37,985 nucleotides of DNA, from NCBI RefSeq assembly GCF_002571225.1, contig NZ_NVEC01000066.1, positions 1 to 37,985 of the forward strand. The letters are read 5' to 3'. Positions 2,478 to 29,973 of this stretch are shown piece after piece. Within the stretch, counting starts at the first letter, position 1. Every line of letters starts with the position of its first letter. A program made the translations under genes and the position numbers. Below the pieces are notes generated by a model, which ran no database searches, was not told the DNA's origin, and was given only the letters and a program-made list of their open reading frames with translations. This DNA is from Bacillus sp. AFS059628. Its GTDB lineage: Bacteria > Bacillota > Bacilli > Bacillales > Bacillaceae_G.

Positions 2478-3842
2478 TTGATTCAAATGAATTTGAAAAA
2501 ACTTGAAGAAGTAGTAAATGGAGAAGGATTACAAGAATCGTTTCATCTTATAGAGATACATGGTGTCTGCATAGATTCCAAAAACATGAAAGAAGGAAAT
2601 TTATTTGTTCCAATCATTAGGATGAAAGATGGGCATGAGTATGTGAAAGAAGCAATGGATAATAGAGCTGTCGCTTCCTTGTGGAAAAAGTCTTACGGTA
2701 CTCCGCCAAAAGGGATTCCAATTATATTTGTGGATGACACTTTGTTTGCTTTGCAACAATTGGCACAATTTTATCGAAGAGAGATAAATGTAAAAGTAAT
2801 AGGAATTACAGGTAGTAATGGCAAGACTACGGTAAAAGATATAATAGGAAGCATTTTAAGTTCAACTTATAAAGTGCATAAAACAAAAGGTAATTTTAAT
2901 AGTCAAATCGGTTTGCCGTTAACAATTTTAGAAATGGAACGAAATACTGAGTTCTTAATACTTGAAATGGGAATGAGTGAAAAAGGACAAATTCGAAATT
3001 TATCACGAATCGCACAGCCAGATGTAGCGGTGATTACAATGATTGGGCAGTCTCATTTAGAAACGCTTGGATCAAGAAAAGAAATTGCGAAGGCTAAATT
3101 AGAGATTATTGACGGGTTAAGAGAAAATGGTTTGTTCTTATATAATGGTGATGAGCCATTGCTTTCTCGAAATAATAAAACGTCGAGTGTAAATTGTAAG
3201 ACATTTGGTGAAAAGGATACAAATGATTTGTTTCCAACGAACGTACAATTAGATGAATATGGTGTTCATTTTAAATTAAATCATTCAAAAATACAGTACG
3301 ATGTTCCCTTACATGGAAAACATAATATTTTTAATACGATTGTCGGAATCGCTGTAGGTCAATTTTACAAAGTCCCTATAGAAAAAATACAAGAAGCATT
3401 GCAGCAAATAAATATTACACAAATGCGCTTTCAGTTTTTAACCGCTAAAACAGGTTTTACAATTATTAACGATGCATGGAATGCCAGTCCTTCCTCCATG
3501 AAGGCTGCAATTGAAACGTTGCAGAAATTAAATGCCTATAAGAAAAAAATGATAGTGATTGGGGATATGTTGGAGTTAGGCAAGAAAGCTGAAACATATC
3601 ATAGAGAAATTGGTAAAATGTTAAATGAGGAGATTATTCAATATGTATTTACGTATGGAGAGTTAGCCAAAATTGTAGCGGAAGAAGCAAGAAAGAACTA
3701 TCATACAGGAAAAATAAAGTCATTTGATAATAAAGCCGAGATAGCAGAGGAAGTATTAAAAGTAATAACGAAAAAGGATGTTGTTTTACTGAAAGGTTCA
3801 CGTGGAATGGCTTTAGAGGAAATTGTACAAAACTGGATATGA
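2478..3842 (+). CDS. MurF-like Mur ligase (UDP-MurNAc-tripeptide:D-Ala-D-Ala ligase family), probably a paralogue
   Basis: ATP-dependent Mur ligase that would join D-Ala-D-Ala to UDP-MurNAc-tripeptide in the cytoplasm. The start is TTG at 2478, preceded by AAAGGTGAT at proper spacing; the ATG at 2487 is too far from it. Of 454 residues, 1-105 form the substrate domain, the ATP loop GITGSNGKTT is at 109-118, the central domain includes LILEMGMSEKGQI, and the C-terminal ligase domain carries NDAWNASPSSM and IGDMLELG. These are the family signatures and the length is normal. The gene stands outside a ddl-murF or dcw setting, so it is probably a second MurF-like copy. Its true substrate is an inference. 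It has its own ribosome site and no downstream partner; the aspS2 promoter starts 25 bases after its stop. Confidence 0.85.
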   Translation: MIQMNLKKLEEVVNGEGLQESFHLIEIHGVCIDSKNMKEGNLFVPIIRMKDGHEYVKEAMDNRAVASLWKKSYGTPPKGIPIIFVDDTLFALQQLAQFYRREINVKVIGITGSNGKTTVKDIIGSILSSTYKVHKTKGNFNSQIGLPLTILEMERNTEFLILEMGMSEKGQIRNLSRIAQPDVAVITMIGQSHLETLGSRKEIAKAKLEIIDGLRENGLFLYNGDEPLLSRNNKTSSVNCKTFGEKDTNDLFPTNVQLDEYGVHFKLNHSKIQYDVPLHGKHNIFNTIVGIAVGQFYKVPIEKIQEALQQINITQMRFQFLTAKTGFTIINDAWNASPSSMKAAIETLQKLNAYKKKMIVIGDMLELGKKAETYHREIGKMLNEEIIQYVFTYGELAKIVAEEARKNYHTGKIKSFDNKAEIAEEVLKVITKKDVVLLKGSRGMALEEIVQNWI

Positions 3843-3867
3843 AAAATTAAAATATATTTAAAAGTGC

Positions 3868-3896
3868 TTGCATTTTATAGTGTGAAGAGATAGAAT
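3868..3896 (+). promoter_or_regulatory. SigA promoter of the aspS2 T-box leader
   Basis: TTGCAT (3868-3873), a 17-base spacer, then TAGAAT (3891-3896). This is a close SigA match placed just upstream of the T-box, predicting a transcript start near 3903. Confidence 0.75.
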
Positions 3897-3902
3897 ACTC
3901 TG

Positions 3903-4139
3903 TAAATATAAAAAGTGATGATCAGGAAAAGTACATGATGCAAAGGTCTACAGAGAGCAATTGGTTGCTGAGAAGATTGCGATACCGCATGATGGAAAGA
4001 CACCTGTGAGTGTTGCTTTGAACGTGATAATTAGTAAAAGCAAACGGTACCTACCGTTATCAGGGCTAAGATGGTCATTATGACAATTTGGGTGGTACCG
4101 CGGAAAAATCCGTCCCTATTTATAGGGGCGGATTTTTGT
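3903..4139 (+). promoter_or_regulatory. T-box riboswitch leader with terminator, probable Asn specifier
   Basis: A tRNA-sensing transcription attenuator. The specifier-loop motif AGTA lies at about 3930, the Stem I ACAGAGAGC motif at about 3950-3958, and the antiterminator T-box GGTGGTACCGCGG at 4091-4103, with TGG at 4093-4095 to pair with the tRNA CCA end. The terminator stem is 4104-4118 with 4123-4137 plus T run. Pairing the lower Stem I arms (GATGATC with GATAATT) and aligning to the second T-box in this window puts the specifier at AAC, 4021-4023, i.e. tRNA-Asn; an overlapping GAA starts one base earlier. Uncharged tRNA-Asn would stabilise the antiterminator and allow aspS2 transcription. 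The T-box itself is certain; the specifier is inferred from hand-folding. Confidence 0.9.
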
Positions 4140-4164
4140 ATTCTTTTAAGGGAGGTGAGTGACC

Positions 4165-4338
4165 GTGGATGATGACGATGACAACAACAATAACGTAAAT
4201 AAATATAAAATTACCGGAGGGAAAAATAATGGAGTCAATAATGAAGCGTTCACTCACAAAAGAATGTACAAAGCAAGGCGGAAAAGTTGTATTACTTCAA
4301 GGGTGGGTAAAAAAGATTCGTCATCTTGGAAATGTTAG
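4165..4338 (+). CDS. Candidate aspS2 leader peptide with Asp5-Asn4 codon run
   Basis: A GTG at 4165 follows GGAGGTGAG (4151-4159), one of the best Shine-Dalgarno sequences in the window, at seven-base spacing. The 57-codon frame begins Val/Met, then Asp codons GAT GAT GAC GAT GAC, then Asn codons AAC AAC AAT AAC, with six more Asn codons later. It runs through the aspS2 ribosome site (4216-4221) and start (4229) in another frame and stops at 4338, overlapping aspS2 by 110 bases. The two repeated amino acids are those whose tRNAs a non-discriminating AspRS charges, which argues against chance. Inference: ribosomes stalled on the run leave the aspS2 ribosome site free, while ribosomes that pass it run over the start and depress initiation. 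Beyond the run the peptide is charged and has no recognisable fold. Translation has not been shown. Confidence 0.6.
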   Translation: MDDDDDNNNNVNKYKITGGKNNGVNNEAFTHKRMYKARRKSCITSRVGKKDSSSWKC

Positions 4339-5527
4339 TTTTTTATTATTACGGGACAGAACAGGGGTAATTCAATGTGTATTAGAAAATGAATTAGCTG
4401 GATATAAAGTTGATGTAGAAAGTGTCGTCCATGTAATCGGCGAGATAGTCGAAACAACGAAAACAGAATTGGGTGTTGAATTACTTGCGCATGAAGTGAA
4501 AGTAATAAACGGTGCAGAACAACTTCCATTTGAAATAAATAAAAAGAAGTTACAAGTTGGCTTAGATCAACTACTTAATGAGCGGGTATTATCATTAAGA
4601 CATGAGAGAATTGCGGCGATATTTAAAGTGAAATCTACGTTCGTTCATAGCTTTAGTGAATTCCTTGCAGAGAACGATTTCACACGTATATTTACTCCGA
4701 AAATTGTTTCGCAAGGGGCAGAAGGAGGAGCAAATGTTTTTAAGCTTCCATACTTCCAAAAAGAAGCTTATTTAGCACAATCACCACAGTTTTATAAGCA
4801 AATGATGGTAGCTGGGGGATTAGAGCGTGTTTTTGAAATTGCACCTGTATATAGAGCGGAACATCATAATTCTTCTCGTCATTTGAATGAATATATATCG
4901 TTAGACGTAGAGCTTGGCTTTATTCATGATTTTCATGAAGTGATGCAATTAGAAACGGATGTTTTACGTTATATGTTTCAACAAGTAGCAAAAAATTGTG
5001 AAAAAGAACTACAACTATTACAAATAGAAGTACCTGTTATTACAGAAATACCGAAAATTACATTGTTACAAGCACAAGAAATCTTAAAAAGTAAGTATCG
5101 TAAAGAATCTCCTGTAGGGGATTTAGATACAGAAGGTGAAAAGTTACTAGGGAAATATGTGAAGGAAACATATAAGAGTGAGTTTGTTTTCATTACACAT
5201 TATCCGAAAGAAGCGAGACCGATGTATACGATGCCGAATAAAGAGAATCCAGCTATAACTGATTCGTTCGACTTACTATATAAAGGATTAGAAATAACAT
5301 CAGGAGCACAGCGAATTCATAATTATGAAATGTTACTCGCTTCGTTTAACGAAAAAGGATTACATCCCGATAAGTTTCAATCGTATTTAAATACATTTCG
5401 ATACGGTTGTCCCCCGCACGGTGGTTTTGGAATTGGGTTAGAGAGAGTTGTATATAAACTATTAGAATTAACAAATGTACGAGAAGCGAGTGCTTTTCCG
5501 AGAGATTGTACTCGTCTTATACCATAA
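4229..5527 (+). CDS. aspS2: Archaeal-type aspartyl-tRNA synthetase AspRS2, probably non-discriminating
   Basis: Class II synthetase that activates Asp and loads it onto tRNA-Asp and, if non-discriminating, tRNA-Asn for later GatCAB amidation. Start ATG 4229 has GGAGGG seven bases upstream; an in-frame ATG 12 bases later is less well placed. The 432-residue length fits the archaeal/AspRS2 type and not the bacterial type (about 590, with a GAD insert). Seen: N-terminal OB anticodon domain with GWVKKIRHLGNVSF, motif 2 YRAEHHNSSRHLNEY, motif 3 GIGLERV at 401-407. The two OB positions that read C36 of tRNA-Asp in discriminating archaeal enzymes (Trp, Lys) appear here as Lys28 and Glu80 by hand alignment, consistent with relaxed tRNA choice. 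The Asn-type T-box points the same way. Controlled by promoter, T-box and the overlapping leader frame. Confidence 0.92.
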   Translation: MESIMKRSLTKECTKQGGKVVLLQGWVKKIRHLGNVSFLLLRDRTGVIQCVLENELAGYKVDVESVVHVIGEIVETTKTELGVELLAHEVKVINGAEQLPFEINKKKLQVGLDQLLNERVLSLRHERIAAIFKVKSTFVHSFSEFLAENDFTRIFTPKIVSQGAEGGANVFKLPYFQKEAYLAQSPQFYKQMMVAGGLERVFEIAPVYRAEHHNSSRHLNEYISLDVELGFIHDFHEVMQLETDVLRYMFQQVAKNCEKELQLLQIEVPVITEIPKITLLQAQEILKSKYRKESPVGDLDTEGEKLLGKYVKETYKSEFVFITHYPKEARPMYTMPNKENPAITDSFDLLYKGLEITSGAQRIHNYEMLLASFNEKGLHPDKFQSYLNTFRYGCPPHGGFGIGLERVVYKLLELTNVREASAFPRDCTRLIP

Positions 5528-7304: not shown

Positions 7305-7667
7305 GTGGAAGAGATTATTGTGACATACATAAAACAGTCAAATGAAGAAATTGATATTGCAATTCCAAATGACGTAAAAGTGGTGCAAATTATTGAAGCG
7401 ATTTTACATCATGAAAAAATAGATGAAGCATTAAGCGGGATCTATGAAATTAGAGTGGCAAAAGATAAAGAAGAGTGGCATTCTATTCGAAATGATGAAA
7501 CGTTGCGCGATAATGATGTGTGGGATGGACAATATGTAATGCTACATAAAAAAGGAGCAATTATCCCTTCTTTTGAAATGATGCCAGCAAAAGAAGTTTA
7601 TAATGAACCTGTTAAACAAGATATGTCTTCTAGTGAAGAAGATTATGTATGGAAAATCATTGAGTAA
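7305..7667 (+). CDS. YukD/EsaB-like ubiquitin-fold protein of T7SS
   Basis: Small cytosolic protein. The start is GTG at 7305, seven bases after AAAAAAGGTG; the ATG two bases earlier runs into a stop. Residues 1-80 have the pattern of the YukD ubiquitin-like fold: an amphipathic first strand, a helix around VKVVQIIEAILHHEKID, then strands ending in the VMLHKKG region. The 40-residue C-terminal tail is acidic and beyond the usual YukD length of about 80. EsaB/YukD proteins are regulators or accessory subunits of Firmicute type VII systems, and genes for them commonly sit beside the EssC/YukB ATPase, as here (31 bases away). The similarity is weak at sequence level; position supports it. Confidence 0.75.
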   Translation: MEEIIVTYIKQSNEEIDIAIPNDVKVVQIIEAILHHEKIDEALSGIYEIRVAKDKEEWHSIRNDETLRDNDVWDGQYVMLHKKGAIIPSFEMMPAKEVYNEPVKQDMSSSEEDYVWKIIE

Positions 7668-7698
7668 TAGTTTTGGGATGGGGAAGGAGAAATGTTTT

Positions 7699-10600
7699 GT
7701 GCAAAAATCACCGTATTTTCAACGCTCTCCGCGTGTGAAAGTAGATATACCAACAGGGGATGTTATTATTCATGATCCACCGAATATACCGGAGGAGCCG
7801 AAGTTTTCAATTGAAACAATGTTACTGCCTGCAATGATGACAGTTTTAACATTGGTATTATATTTTGTAATGATGAAATTTATGAAGATGAATTCAAGTT
7901 ATATGCCATTAATGATGGTTTCAAGTATTCCGATGTTAGGATCATATATAATTACAACGATGGGGCATTTCCGTAAAAAGAAAGAACATCGTCAAATGGT
8001 TGAACAATTACAAACAAGATATTTAGAGCAAATTCAAAAGCATCGAGTGGAATTAGATACGTTAAAGGTTGAACAAGCAAAATATTTAATTACACAAAAT
8101 CCAAGCCCATTAAAAAGTGTACAAAGAATTGAAAACAGGGAAAGTAATTTGTGGGAGAGAACACCTGAAAGTCCAGACTTTTTAGATATTCGTATTGGTA
8201 CAGGAGAAAGACCATTCCTTGTAGAATTGAAGGTGCCTGAACAGAAAGGTTACGAAGAAAATCCATTAGTTACAGAAGCACAAAATGTGAAAAGAGATTT
8301 CAATACGATACCGAATGGACATATTTCAATTTCTTTGAAAAAAAATGATGTAATTGGTGTAGTCGGAAATAAAGAAGATAGACTAAACTTTATTCGAATT
8401 GTAACGACACAAATTATGACGCATCATGCACCAAATGAAGTGAAAATAGCAGCATTTTATCATGAGAAGGAGAAAAAGCAGTGGGATTGGATGAGGTGGC
8501 TTCCTCATGTATGGGATGAACAGAGAAGTATGCGCTTTTTATCTGAAAATCAACAGGATGCACAGAAACTAGCTGAAGTACTATTTACCCCACTTAATAT
8601 GCGTAGAATCTATAATTCCTCTGCGCAAGCAGATGCAAAAGTTCCTTTAATTCCGATGTATGTATTTTTCTTATCAGCGAGAGAGTTTTTAGAAGATGAT
8701 CCTTTAACTCCAATGTTACTTAGAGAAGGTGAAAGTGTAGGAGCTTCTACATTTATTTTTGCGGAACAAAAGGAACGCTTACCGATGGAATGTGATCTTG
8801 TAATAAGCTTAAATGGAGAAAATGGTGAGTTAGTAGAAACGTTTTCAAGTTCAGCTGAAAATAGTGGAACAACGCGTGCTAGTTTTAAAGTAGATCGACT
8901 TTCATTCGAGCGATGTGAACTAGGAGCGCGAAGCATTGCTCCAATTCGAATGAAAAGTTCTACAGCAGCCAACATTCCGAAAGTATTAACATTTTTAGAC
9001 TTGTTTCAAGCTAAAAATATGGAAGAGCTACAAGTGCTAGAGAGATGGAAAGAAAATCGATATCCGACTTCATTACCGGTTCCAATTGGTGTAAGAGAAG
9101 GAAGTAAACCTGTTTTTCTAAATATTCACGATAAAATAGAGAAAAAAGGGCATGGTCCACACGGTCTAATGGCTGGTACAACAGGATCAGGAAAAAGTGA
9201 AGTAATTCAGTCTATAATAGCAGCGTTAGCAGCAACCTATCACCCTCATGAGATGGCATTTATGCTTATCGATTATAAAGGTGGTGGGATGTCAAACACA
9301 TTTGCGGGATTACCGCATATTATTGCATCTATTACGAACTTAGAGGACCCGAACTTAATTGAGCGTGCCAGAATTTCATTAAAGGCAGAACTAGAACGGA
9401 GACAAAAATTATTCATTCAAGCTGGAAATGTTCAGCATCTAGATGAATATTATGAAACAAGCTGGCGTGAAAAAGAACCTTTACCACATTTATTTATTGT
9501 TATTGATGAGTTTGCTCAAATGAAAAAGGAACAACCAGAATTTATGGACGAGCTAATTAGTGTCGCTGCAATAGGAAGGACATTAGGAGTTCACTTATTA
9601 TTAGCAACTCAAAAACCTTCAGGGGTTGTAAATGACAAGATTTGGAGTAACTCACGTTTTCGAATTTGTTTACGTGTACAAGATGACGCGGATAGTCGTG
9701 AAATGTTAAAGATTCCAGATGCATCTAAAATCAATGTACCAGGGCGAGGATATCTTCAAGTTGGTAGCAATGAAGTATTGGAATTATTCCAATCTGCATG
9801 GAGTGGAGCACCTTATAATCCAGATGAAGAGAAAGTTCTTGATATTGTTGACTTTACAGAAGTGAAGCTTTCCGGTGAAAGAATAAAAGTGAAAAAGCGT
9901 CCAAAACCAATGACAAATAGTCCAAAGCAACTACAAGCTTTTATTCAATATGTACAGAGCGTATCAGAAAAAGAAAATATTAAAGCATTACCAGGACCTT
10001 GGCTGGATCCATTACCGGAAAAATTATTGTTAAAAGAATTTTATGCTATGGAAGATTGGACAATTGCTGAGTGGAATAAATCAAAAGAATATTTACAAGT
10101 AACAGTAGGATTAATTGATGATGTTGCAAATCAAGCTCAATTTCCTCTGAAGTTAGATTTACAAGAAGGGCATTTAAATATTTATGGTATGCCAGGTACA
10201 GGAAAAACGACGATGTTGCAAACAATTATTATGTCTCTAGCTGTATCTCATACACCAGCAGAAGTGAATTTCTATATTATTGATTTTGGTCGAATGTTCT
10301 TAGATTTTAGAGATTTACCTCATATTGGCGGGATTATACAAGAAGGCGAAAATGAGAAAATGAAACGTCTATTCGGATTTTTAAAGAAGGAAATCACGCA
10401 TAGAAAAGAGAGCTTTTCTAATATCGGTGCAAAGTCATTCTCTATGTATAACCGAATGGTAGAAAAGAAAATACCAGCAATAGTAGTAATGGTAGATGGT
10501 TATATAAGATTCAAAAATGAATTCGAGAAAGAAAATGAAGTATTAGAATTATTATTGCGTGAATCAAGTACATATGGAGTATATTTCTATTTTTCTCTGA

Positions 10601-11706
10601 ATCAAACAATAGATATGTTCGATCGTGTTCGTAATAATATACCGATGGCACTTACATTTGAATTGCAAGATGGAACAGAATATCATAACTTAGTTGGCAG
10701 ACCTAAATTCCCATTAATTGAAGTTCCTGTTGGCCGTGGATTAATGAAAGGGCAACCGCCGGAATTATTCCAAGCAGCATTGCCGTTTATTGGGGAAAGT
10801 GAACTTGAATACTCTCAACAATTAAAAACAATTATTCAAAAAATGAATGGAGTATGGAATGGTGAAAAAGCAAAAGAGATTCCAATGGTACCTAAAGAAA
10901 TATTTGTAGAACATATGATTGAAAAATTAGAAAGAGCTCATATTTCAGCAGGTATAGAAACAGAGGATATTCGTTTGCAAAGTTTTTCTTTAGATGAAAT
11001 GAGTCATATATTTATTGGGGGAAGAATAGAAGGTGGAAAAACATCGCTATTACAAACACTTCTATTCACTACTACATACCAATACTCTCCTGAAAAGGTT
11101 GAGCTATACTTAGTAGACCTTGGTGAAAGACCTACAGGCTTATTAGCTCTTGGAGATTTACCTCATGTGAAGAAGAAAGTTACAGATGGTATGCAATTAA
11201 AAGAAATGTTAGATGAATTGTTAGAGCTAATAAATAATAGAGAACCAATAATGCCTTCTATAGATCCAAACACAACAGTGGAGATTCCATATAAGAGAAT
11301 AATCATTGCGATTGATGATATCGATCAAATGTTAACTATATTATCTACTGATTATGAGGCGAAAAATAAAATGGAACTAATAGTCCAAAACTGTAAAAAT
11401 AAAGGGATTCACTTTATGACAGCTGCTACTACGTCTAGCTTAAATAGCTATTCTCATGAAAAATGGTTTGCGGAAATTAGAAAGAGAAGTATTGGATATT
11501 TATTGGGAACGACACAAAATAACGATGTGTATTTCTTTAATATGAAACTGCCACATACTGAAATGGATCAAGAATTATTAAGTGGGGATGGATATTGCAT
11601 ACGTAGAAAGCCAATAAAAATAAAATGTGCATATACACCATTACATTTACTTCGCACGATGACAGATAAAATTAGTGTGAAATGGTCTGAATTAAAAGTG
11701 AAATAA
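7699..11706 (+). CDS. essC: EssC/YukB-like FtsK/SpoIIIE ATPase of type VII secretion
   Basis: Membrane-anchored motor that recognises and drives WXG100 substrates through the T7SS. I place the start at GTG 7699, eight bases after AAGGAGA; the open frame continues upstream into the previous gene. The 1335-residue protein has two membrane segments at about 40-62 and 72-92, then three P-loop ATPase domains: GTTGSGKS at 493-500, with Walker B LFIVIDEF; GMPGTGKT at 830-837; GRIEGGKT at 1108-1115. The first two have canonical loops; the third is degenerate in spirit but fits GxxxxGKT. EssC/YukB proteins normally carry two N-terminal FHA domains (total about 1480-1500); here only about 40 residues precede the first membrane segment, so FHA domains are absent. 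The start could be slightly different but no FHA domain is encoded upstream. Confidence 0.95.
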   Translation: MQKSPYFQRSPRVKVDIPTGDVIIHDPPNIPEEPKFSIETMLLPAMMTVLTLVLYFVMMKFMKMNSSYMPLMMVSSIPMLGSYIITTMGHFRKKKEHRQMVEQLQTRYLEQIQKHRVELDTLKVEQAKYLITQNPSPLKSVQRIENRESNLWERTPESPDFLDIRIGTGERPFLVELKVPEQKGYEENPLVTEAQNVKRDFNTIPNGHISISLKKNDVIGVVGNKEDRLNFIRIVTTQIMTHHAPNEVKIAAFYHEKEKKQWDWMRWLPHVWDEQRSMRFLSENQQDAQKLAEVLFTPLNMRRIYNSSAQADAKVPLIPMYVFFLSAREFLEDDPLTPMLLREGESVGASTFIFAEQKERLPMECDLVISLNGENGELVETFSSSAENSGTTRASFKVDRLSFERCELGARSIAPIRMKSSTAANIPKVLTFLDLFQAKNMEELQVLERWKENRYPTSLPVPIGVREGSKPVFLNIHDKIEKKGHGPHGLMAGTTGSGKSEVIQSIIAALAATYHPHEMAFMLIDYKGGGMSNTFAGLPHIIASITNLEDPNLIERARISLKAELERRQKLFIQAGNVQHLDEYYETSWREKEPLPHLFIVIDEFAQMKKEQPEFMDELISVAAIGRTLGVHLLLATQKPSGVVNDKIWSNSRFRICLRVQDDADSREMLKIPDASKINVPGRGYLQVGSNEVLELFQSAWSGAPYNPDEEKVLDIVDFTEVKLSGERIKVKKRPKPMTNSPKQLQAFIQYVQSVSEKENIKALPGPWLDPLPEKLLLKEFYAMEDWTIAEWNKSKEYLQVTVGLIDDVANQAQFPLKLDLQEGHLNIYGMPGTGKTTMLQTIIMSLAVSHTPAEVNFYIIDFGRMFLDFRDLPHIGGIIQEGENEKMKRLFGFLKKEITHRKESFSNIGAKSFSMYNRMVEKKIPAIVVMVDGYIRFKNEFEKENEVLELLLRESSTYGVYFYFSLNQTIDMFDRVRNNIPMALTFELQDGTEYHNLVGRPKFPLIEVPVGRGLMKGQPPELFQAALPFIGESELEYSQQLKTIIQKMNGVWNGEKAKEIPMVPKEIFVEHMIEKLERAHISAGIETEDIRLQSFSLDEMSHIFIGGRIEGGKTSLLQTLLFTTTYQYSPEKVELYLVDLGERPTGLLALGDLPHVKKKVTDGMQLKEMLDELLELINNREPIMPSIDPNTTVEIPYKRIIIAIDDIDQMLTILSTDYEAKNKMELIVQNCKNKGIHFMTAATTSSLNSYSHEKWFAEIRKRSIGYLLGTTQNNDVYFFNMKLPHTEMDQELLSGDGYCIRRKPIKIKCAYTPLHLLRTMTDKISVKWSELKVK

Positions 11707-28238: not shown

Positions 28239-28541
28239 AATTTCAAAAGAAAATATATTCTAAATATTTAATTGTGTTGAATAGGAGTAGTAAGGTCGTA
28301 TATTTGTACAGAGAGCTATGGGTTGGTGTGACATAGTCAAATGACATCCTGAACTCGCCTAGGAGCAGTAAGGTGGAACGGAATCACATTCTTAGTAAAT
28401 CTTAACGGTTAACCTTCGATATTAGGTTTGTAATCAAACGATTACTACTAAGGTGGATTCATAATGGAATCAATAAGAGTGGTACCGCGTTAAGCAAATG
28501 GCTTAGCGTCTCTTTATATAGAGACGTTGGGCCATTTTTTT
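28239..28541 (+). promoter_or_regulatory. T-box riboswitch leader with terminator, probable Ile specifier
   Basis: Stem I motifs AGGAGTAGTAA and ACAGAGAGC (about 28311-28319), T-box GAGTGGTACCGCG (28477-28489; TGG 28480-28482) and a terminator (ATGGC...GCGTCTCT at 28498-28513 with AGAGACG...GCCAT and T run to 28541). The lower Stem I pairing GAAT/ATTC and alignment to the first T-box (shared TTAGTAAA after the specifier arm) put the specifier at ATC, 28383-28385: tRNA-Ile. The T-box is certain, the specifier moderately so. It would switch on the transporter when isoleucyl-tRNA is low. Confidence 0.88.
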
Positions 28542-28632: not shown

Positions 28633-29973
28633 ATGAAACAGACGGAGCAATGGACTTCGAAATTAGGGTTTATAATGGCTGCAGCAGGATCAGCAATTGG
28701 ACTTGGCGCAATATGGAAGTTTCCTTATATCGCTGGGAAAAGCGGGGGAGGAGCATTCTTTTTAATCTTTATATTATTTACTGTATTAATTGGATTACCA
28801 CTACTTATAGCTGAATTTATGATTGGACGCAGTACACAGAAACAAGCAGTTGGAGCATTTAAAAGTATCGCACCTAATACAGGATGGCACTGGATTGGAC
28901 GCCTTGGCGTTGGAACATGTTTTATACTACTTTCGTTTTATAGTGTTGTAGGTGGATGGGTGTTAATTTATTTATTCAGGGGAGTAACGGGACAACTTAT
29001 TACTCCGGGACAAAATTACGGAGCATTATTTACTGAAACAATTGGAAATCCGACTTGGGCGATTATGGGACATTTCGCTTTTATGTTCATTACGATATGG
29101 GTTGTATCAAAGGGTGTACAAAACGGAATTGAAAAAGCAAGTAAATATATGTTGCCAGCATTGTTCGTTTTATTTGTCGCTCTTATTATTCGTTCGTTAA
29201 CACTTGATGATGCAATGAAAGGTGTGAAGTTTTTCTTACAACCGGACTTCTCAAAGGTTACTTCGGAAAGTATTTTGTTCGCAATGGGGCAATCATTCTT
29301 TGCGATTAGTATCGGGATTTCAATTATGGTTACGTATAGTTCCTATTTAAATAAAAAAGAAAGTTTACCAAAATCAGCAATAACAATTGTTGGATTGAAT
29401 TTATTTGTTTCATTATTTGCAGGACTTGCAATTTTTCCGGCCGTATTTTCATTAGGAATGGAGCCAACAGAAGGGCCTGGATTACTATTTATCGTATTAC
29501 CATCAGTATTTAGTCAAATTCCATTTGGTGCGGTTTTCTTAACAGTATTTCTTGCACTATTTACATTTGCGACATTAACATCAGCATTTTCACTATTAGA
29601 GACAGTTGTTTCAGCAGTGACAAATGGTGAACAGGAAAGAAGAACGAAATTATCATGGATGATCGGTTTCGGCATTTTCTTAGTAGGTATACCATCAGCG
29701 TTATCATTTGGAGTATGGAGTGATATTACGATTTTCGGAAAAAATATTTTTGATGTAGTAGACTTCTTATCTAGTAATATATTAATGCCACTTGGTGCAC
29801 TATTTATTAGTATTTTCGTTTCATTCAAAATGGAAAAGAAGGTGCTAGAAGCAGAGTTTTTTGTAGGTGGAAATTATGGAAAGAAAGTATTTACTTGTTG
29901 GGCGTTTTTACTTCGATTTATAGCACCGCTTGCAATCATCATCGTCTTTTTAAATGTAATAGGGATTATTTAA
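28633..29973 (+). CDS. Sodium-dependent amino-acid transporter, NSS/SNF family
   Basis: Integral membrane symporter, 446 residues, about 11-12 membrane segments. ATG 28633 follows GGGAGG. The signature near the N-terminus ([21 protein letters not shown]) is the LeuT-type unwound TM1 that binds sodium and substrate; a second marker is [20 protein letters not shown] (TM6 region). It is a single-gene unit behind a T-box. With an Ile-type specifier the likely substrate is isoleucine or another branched-chain amino acid, but bacterial NSS members also carry Trp or Tyr, so the substrate is an inference from the leader only. Confidence 0.92.

Follow-up and report, generated by a model that had tools for sequence, protein, structure and literature searches.

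The gene aspS2, which encodes a spare aspartyl-tRNA synthetase, is preceded in the stretch of DNA analysed here (37,985 nucleotides; hereafter the window) by a T-box with an Asp specifier and by a short open reading frame that has a run of Asp and Asn codons at its 5' end and continues out of frame over the aspS2 start. The same layout recurs at related loci, and from a comparison of these sequences we propose, with middling confidence, that a two-stage tRNA sensor may govern the spare synthetase. The features of the region are as follows, in window coordinates.

3909..4120, + strand: T-box leader RNA (RF00230), 143.1 bits, gathering threshold 93.
3999..4001, + strand: T-box specifier codon GAC (Asp), in the context GAAA-GAC-ACC.
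4104..4137, + strand: intrinsic terminator of the T-box, a terminator-like site of 15 pairs and a T tail.
4150..4158, + strand: Shine-Dalgarno (SD) of the leader ORF, GGGAGGTGA, with an anti-SD duplex of -17.6 kcal/mol versus -10.6 kcal/mol for aspS2.
4165..4338, + strand: leader ORF of 57 codons with a GTG start, which overlaps aspS2 in another frame; the arrangement is kept in 26 loci.
4168..4194, + strand: Asp5-Asn4 codon run, with homologous runs in relatives.
4216..4221, + strand: SD of aspS2, GGAGGG, lying inside the leader ORF, in the loop that a predicted helix would close; predicted 0.80 unpaired including the start.
4229..5527, + strand: aspS2, aspartate--tRNA(Asn) ligase, 432 aa, above cut-off for NF003483 and TIGR00458.

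The T-box of the window is an ordinary one, a full match with an Asp specifier and a terminator, and the leader is an addition downstream of it. The GAC specifier fits the Asp enzyme encoded downstream. The product of aspS2, AspRS2, which we take to be archaeal-type, scored 625 bits with NF003483 and 453.5 bits (cut-off 368.4 bits) with TIGR00458, the profile of non-discriminating AspRS. These matches are in line with a guess made in the first-pass annotation, that AspRS2 serves both tRNA-Asp and tRNA-Asn. A megablast search with window positions 3850-5527 gave no match to plasmid copies of the region.

The leader can be read directly. The GTG at 4165-4167 opens a frame of 57 codons that ends with the stop at 4336-4338, and its codons 2-10 (4168-4194) are GAT GAT GAC GAT GAC AAC AAC AAT AAC, the sole stretch of at least six D/N in the six frames of the window. 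A GTG at 4159 in the same frame would give a longer product of 59 aa; the start at 4165 is favoured because relatives place the start codon immediately 5' of the run. The aspS2 ATG at 4229 and its GGAGGG both sit within the leader ORF, in the other frame. The first-pass annotation had described a GTG with a strong SD and a 57-codon Asp5-Asn4 frame, had placed it between the T-box terminator and aspS2 and had it cross the aspS2 ribosome site and start; all of this agrees with our reading of 4150-4338 and of the flanking T-box, terminator and ATG, and the crossing recurs in the 26 loci. In the nine loci for which duplexes were computed, with an assumed anti-SD string, the leader SD gave -16.7 to -22.1 kcal/mol versus -8.2 to -11.9 kcal/mol for that of aspS2.

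Relatives of AspRS2 were collected as the best 80 loci from genome contigs and by family and order scans at E <= 1e-120, in which AspRS2 was present in 7/34, 2/19, 7/104 and 6/397 genomes (the sets overlap). Among the AspRS2 loci listed, the window and 25 further loci share the layout of SD, start and Asp/Asn-rich codons, giving 26 nonredundant leader loci after nine duplicates had been removed. The 25 belong to Bacillaceae and Paenibacillaceae groups, apart from one Symbiobacterium MAG (L074). One of them, L098, failed the automatic leader criterion and was added by eye. The nearest AspRS2 among the matches listed, from Lederbergia citrisecunda, is 83% identical, so that the comparison covers relatives at <=83% AspRS2 identity among those matches, and the 26 loci are mutually related and represent few lineages. 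Within this range the features whose conservation the first-pass annotation had proposed to test are largely kept: all 26 loci have the leader with its SD and an overlap across the aspS2 start, and all but L098, whose leader is D-rich and lacks an Asn run, have an Asp/Asn run.

Rfam placed a T-box upstream of the leader in each of the 26 loci, at L074 barely over the threshold (93.4 versus 93 bits). An earlier suspicion, raised by short upstream stretches, that Paenibacillus leaders occur without a T-box was therefore rejected; in 11 Paenibacillus-type loci the T-box match ends 42-224 nt 5' of the leader start. A same-register regex search over the 26 leader loci returned GAC among its candidates in 24, and GAC was recognised by eye in L012 and was not found in L074.

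The leader was absent in 64 of the 90 AspRS2 rows, 63 of them, mostly clostridial, by the automatic criterion and L087 also on reading. A T-box was present in L087 and in all five leaderless rows given to Rfam (L015, L016, L017, L019 and L022). A midpoint-rooted tree was built from the 90 AspRS2 proteins; L048, whose match is interrupted by a stop, was entered with an X. One group of 26, with support 100/96, took in 25 of the 26 leader rows. The remaining member of this group is L087, which has kept the T-box, has no leader and has an altered N-terminus, and which likely represents loss of the leader. L074 stands apart in the tree; its T-box and Asp/Asn leader precede a distant AspRS2 and come without the helix described below, and a separate origin, a transfer and a binning error are the alternatives for it.

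The association of the leader with aspS2 was exclusive in the scans made. A search for an SD, a start and D/N-rich codons on both strands of the AspRS2 loci (911,286 bases with the two strands added) returned 35 matches, duplicates included, and all were aspS2 leaders. The single match to the leader pattern in 398 Bacilli genomes was the aspS2 leader of the genome that carries L005. In 104 Paenibacillaceae genomes the pattern matched eight times in seven genomes, exactly the seven with aspS2, and the eighth match precedes a broken second copy of the gene. With every match in these scans at aspS2, a chance repeat is rejected as the origin of the run. The second copy (L103, in genome G004) has an in-frame stop and a leader with the run DDGDDNNN; no T-box above threshold was found there in the stretch examined, and the leader start still pairs downstream at -21.1 kcal/mol. 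Both L087, with a T-box only, and L103, with a leader only, speak against the two-stage reading proposed below.

The composition of the run suggests that Asp and Asn are the residues under selection. Over the 26 loci the run codons encode D 170 times, N 73 times, G 14 times and E twice, of 272, with C as well as T in the third position (GAT 105, GAC 65, AAC 48, AAT 25). The leader peptide 3' of the run is variable and the run persists. Asp occurs within the first eight codons of all 26 leaders, which would also suit an explanation that dispenses with tRNA charging: the acidic run itself may pause or intrinsically destabilize the ribosome whatever the charging of its tRNAs, the leader then being Mg2+- or ABCF-dependent as in MgtL. 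PMC11282234 reports that E. coli ribosomes pause at early acidic residues and cites repeats of such residues as destabilizing. Leaders that destabilize the ribosome are marked by an N-terminus that is acidic, with Asp or Glu, or intermitted by Pro; the aspS2 runs are rich in Asp, with Glu at 2 of 272 codons. MgtL-type leaders resemble those of aspS2 in their early acidic residues, but the aspS2 leaders are near-devoid of Glu and contain Asn codons. Glu would do equally well for acidic pausing, yet the runs hold 170 D and 2 E versus 424 D and 1038 E in the AspRS2 proteins of the same loci; the second residue of the runs, Asn, is not acidic; and the gene encodes an Asp enzyme behind a T-box that reads Asp. 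We regard acidic pausing as an improbable replacement for charging-dependent stalling, to which it may be an addition.

The position and frame of the run bear on what a stalled or passing ribosome could do. Starts of aspS2 and run ends were assigned by rule; as single interruptions are allowed, the run of the window then extends as far as the Asn codon 4198-4200. So measured, the distance from the run end to the aspS2 ATG is 25-46 nt in 25 of the 26 loci, L098 being the outlier. Allowing for ribosome footprint sizes, this distance leaves room for the aspS2 site beside a ribosome halted at the run end, which upholds the stall geometry put forward in the first-pass annotation. The leader is in frame with aspS2 in four loci (L005, L006, L074 and L086) and occupies the other two frames in 13 and 9. 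Between the run end and a point 30 nt beyond the aspS2 ATG the leader frame is free of stops in 26/26, trivially so past the ATG for the four in-frame loci, and over the same stretch the third frame is broken by a stop in 18 of the 22 out-of-frame loci. With one row per lineage, from eleven lineages that we chose and grouped ourselves, stops were found in 0/8 for the leader frame versus 6/8 for the third frame. Since the third frame is usually broken and the leader frame is open, passage of the leader over the aspS2 start seems to be maintained. L086 has an enlarged run of DDN repeats; its leader is in frame, unlike that of close relatives, and the region of the aspS2 start shows an apparent indel.

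Two further explanations can be weighed against this geometry. The frame could be an N-terminal extension or an alternative start of AspRS2 in some lineages, with no regulatory role, as the four loci in which it is in frame and stop-free would allow. With 22 of 26 leaders out of frame, in both other frames and with stops inside aspS2, it is rejected as a general account, and the residues after the run vary where the run stays; overall we give the extension the smallest probability of the explanations considered. Positive translational coupling, by which ribosomes finishing the leader would feed aspS2, draws on the strong upstream site that lies near a weaker one. In the 22 out-of-frame loci, however, the leader terminates 32-191 nt beyond the aspS2 start and never before or at it, and we find such coupling very unlikely, if slightly less so than the extension.

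The comparison also suggests that the leader start is itself controlled, by a long-range helix with the following arms.

4154..4167, + strand: 5' arm of the predicted helix, comprising the SD tail, the spacer and the leader GTG; duplex -16.5 kcal/mol, with covariation in relatives.
4245..4258, + strand: 3' arm of the predicted helix, aspS2 codons 6-10 (K-R-S-L-T); identified from duplex energies, covariation and fold.

In the window, the helix had p 0.024 against synonymous recodings of aspS2 and 0.09 against other stretches of aspS2. The fold of the window itself is unexceptional (z -0.21), and the case for the helix therefore rests on comparison. In 25 of the 26 loci, L074 being the exception, the best duplex joins the leader SD and start with aspS2 codons around the conserved Arg7. 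The mean energy was -21.1 kcal/mol, with a range of -14.0 to -27.6. In a test against 500 synonymous recodings, p<=0.05 was reached by 23/26 loci, L012 (0.07), L093 (0.156) and L074 (0.466) being the exceptions; 19/26 reached it when the duplex was compared with those formed by other parts of aspS2.

Covariation supports the helix in Bacillaceae. For register counts the loci were divided into two sets, with L074, which has no helix, in neither, and with L011 and L020 omitted from the Paenibacillus-type set because their register differs. In the 12 Bacillaceae-type loci (nine distinct arm pairs), 100/108 cells were paired versus 31-53 of 90-108 when the arms were slid, and five pairs in fixed register had changed on both sides. 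When the 3' arms were re-dealt, 2/20000 shuffles matched the number of paired cells and 1287/20000 matched the both-side count. A permutation over seven lineages of our choosing, in which Lederbergia was represented by L082 and not by L001 (mismatch), equalled the paired cells in 4/5040 orders. The 11 Paenibacillus-type loci (ten distinct) had 97/110 cells paired versus 18-53 of 90-110 when slid, with little variation and one pair changed on both sides. Synonymous-site conservation in the 3' arm, compared among seven close relatives, speaks neither for nor against the helix.

Folding predictions place the main effect of the helix at the leader site. Adding the 3' arm to the fold is predicted to make the leader site less open in 22/26 loci (mean 0.41 to 0.19); the aspS2 site becomes less open in 19/26, more open in six and is unchanged in one (mean about 0.58 to 0.49). 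Together with the comparison of loci, this suggests that the helix closes the leader SD and start by pairing them with aspS2 codons, and so gates leader initiation. A serious rival, which we consider possible though doubtful, is that the helix instead clamps aspS2, in a scheme broadly like that of ErmC: it would repress the gene by hampering 30S loading, a ribosome stopped on the first Asp codons would free it, and passage of the leader over the aspS2 start would be incidental. Counted from the aspS2 ATG, the first base of the 3' arm lies at +6 to +28. The low values in L003 (+6) and L004 (+10) fit a clamp, and so does a run that starts at codon 2, since the 5' arm (-16 to +5) would then lie beneath a ribosome stopped at the first Asp codons. 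The aspS2 site is also predicted to be more open in 19/26 loci when the 3' arm is lacking and, again in 19/26 (seven less), when a leader ribosome is stalled at the run end. Against a clamp, the 5' arm consists of the leader SD and start and not of the aspS2 site, and the larger change in openness is at the leader site; the aspS2 site of the window is predicted to be 0.80 open even when folded and to gain little from a stall (0.73 to 0.76). A ribosome halted at the Asn codons would probably expose much of the 5' arm, and a clamp has no need for the open overlap seen in 26/26.

In the two-stage reading that we prefer, uncharged tRNA-Asp would first be read by the T-box, letting RNA polymerase pass the terminator. 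Ribosomes would then load at the strong leader site and face Asp and Asn codons from codon 2 onwards. With ample charged Asp- and Asn-tRNA, leader ribosomes would cross the aspS2 ribosome site and start and block aspS2 initiation, and in passing they would sweep the 3' arm of the helix within aspS2, so that their own start stays open. With scarce charged tRNA, a leader ribosome would halt within the run, before it reaches the aspS2 site; the unswept 3' arm would let the helix re-form, leaving the leader start shut and aspS2 free to initiate. The more detailed form of this proposal, a toggle in which the overlapping leader and aspS2 frames compete and a stall on Asp or Asn flips the system to leader-shut and aspS2-open, is more tentative, and we think it rather less probable than the two-stage sensor as such, though ahead of the clamp. 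The T-box would read only tRNA-Asp and the leader both tRNAs, and the pair may in this way integrate the two tRNAs tied to one non-discriminating synthetase.

The first-pass annotation had interpreted the leader as a translational sensor stacked on the T-box, with leader ribosomes simply occluding aspS2 when charged tRNA is ample. The layout, the T-box and the near-absence of Glu speak for the sensor, but the leader start appears to be gated in its turn, and simple occlusion is strained by the in-frame loci. These four loci are also the main difficulty for our own proposal, as passing ribosomes would there yield an AspRS2 with an acidic N-terminal extension. Moreover, ribosomes translating aspS2 would also open the helix, which would make for a leaky switch.

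Among known systems, the aspS2 leader most likely works like rtpLP. As described in PMC2311275, a T-box in the B. subtilis rtpA (anti-TRAP, AT) operon is followed by rtpLP, a leader that contains three Trp codons, and by rtpA, whose translation is prevented by complete translation of rtpLP. The window and the 25 further loci likewise have a T-box and a leader ORF with an SD and a run of cognate codons. Unlike rtpLP, the aspS2 leader reads Asp and Asn and not Trp, its target is a synthetase, its frame runs over the gene start and stops well within the coding sequence, and its start is predicted to pair with the coding region of the gene. The rtpLP stop lies just upstream of the gene, so that a finishing ribosome presumably blocks the gene; at aspS2 the stop is well past the ATG in 22 loci and the remaining four leaders are in frame, and we therefore do not file the aspS2 leader as a member of the rtpLP type.

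The other systems compared differ in where they act. In translational attenuators of the ermC type, a stall in the leader alters initiation at the next gene, as is proposed here, but the predicted aspS2-leader helix covers the leader site and not the site of the gene. The His leader peptides that precede hisS/hisZ and his genes in Firmicutes are described in PMC2965389 and PMC9413887 as transcription attenuators that replace T-boxes. Like the aspS2 leader, they place cognate codons in a run ahead of a synthetase gene; at aspS2, by contrast, the T-box is kept and, in window positions 3800-4500, all terminator-like sites lie at or before 4137, with none between the run and 4500. No description of an Asp/Asn aspS2 leader was found in the literature consulted, mostly open-access texts on T-boxes, leader peptides and aspS/AspRS2, nor was one found there of a layout that combines such an overlap with an apparently gated leader start.

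In the literature searched, rtpLP/anti-TRAP is the only stacked transcriptional and translational sensor of charging that we found. A second such sensor, present in two families and acting on a synthetase in place of a regulator, would point to a T-box that is by itself insufficiently tight for a spare synthetase, and the aspS2 leader would offer a natural reporter of joint Asp- and Asn-tRNA charging.

Elsewhere in the window, a second T-box (28268-28516, 129.5 bits), with a specifier that by eye is apparently CUC (Leu), lies upstream of a gene for a transporter of the sodium:neurotransmitter-symporter family (28633-29973). Positions 7603-11706 encode a large FtsK/SpoIIIE-family protein (Pfam), which we take to resemble the EssC ATPase of type VII secretion.
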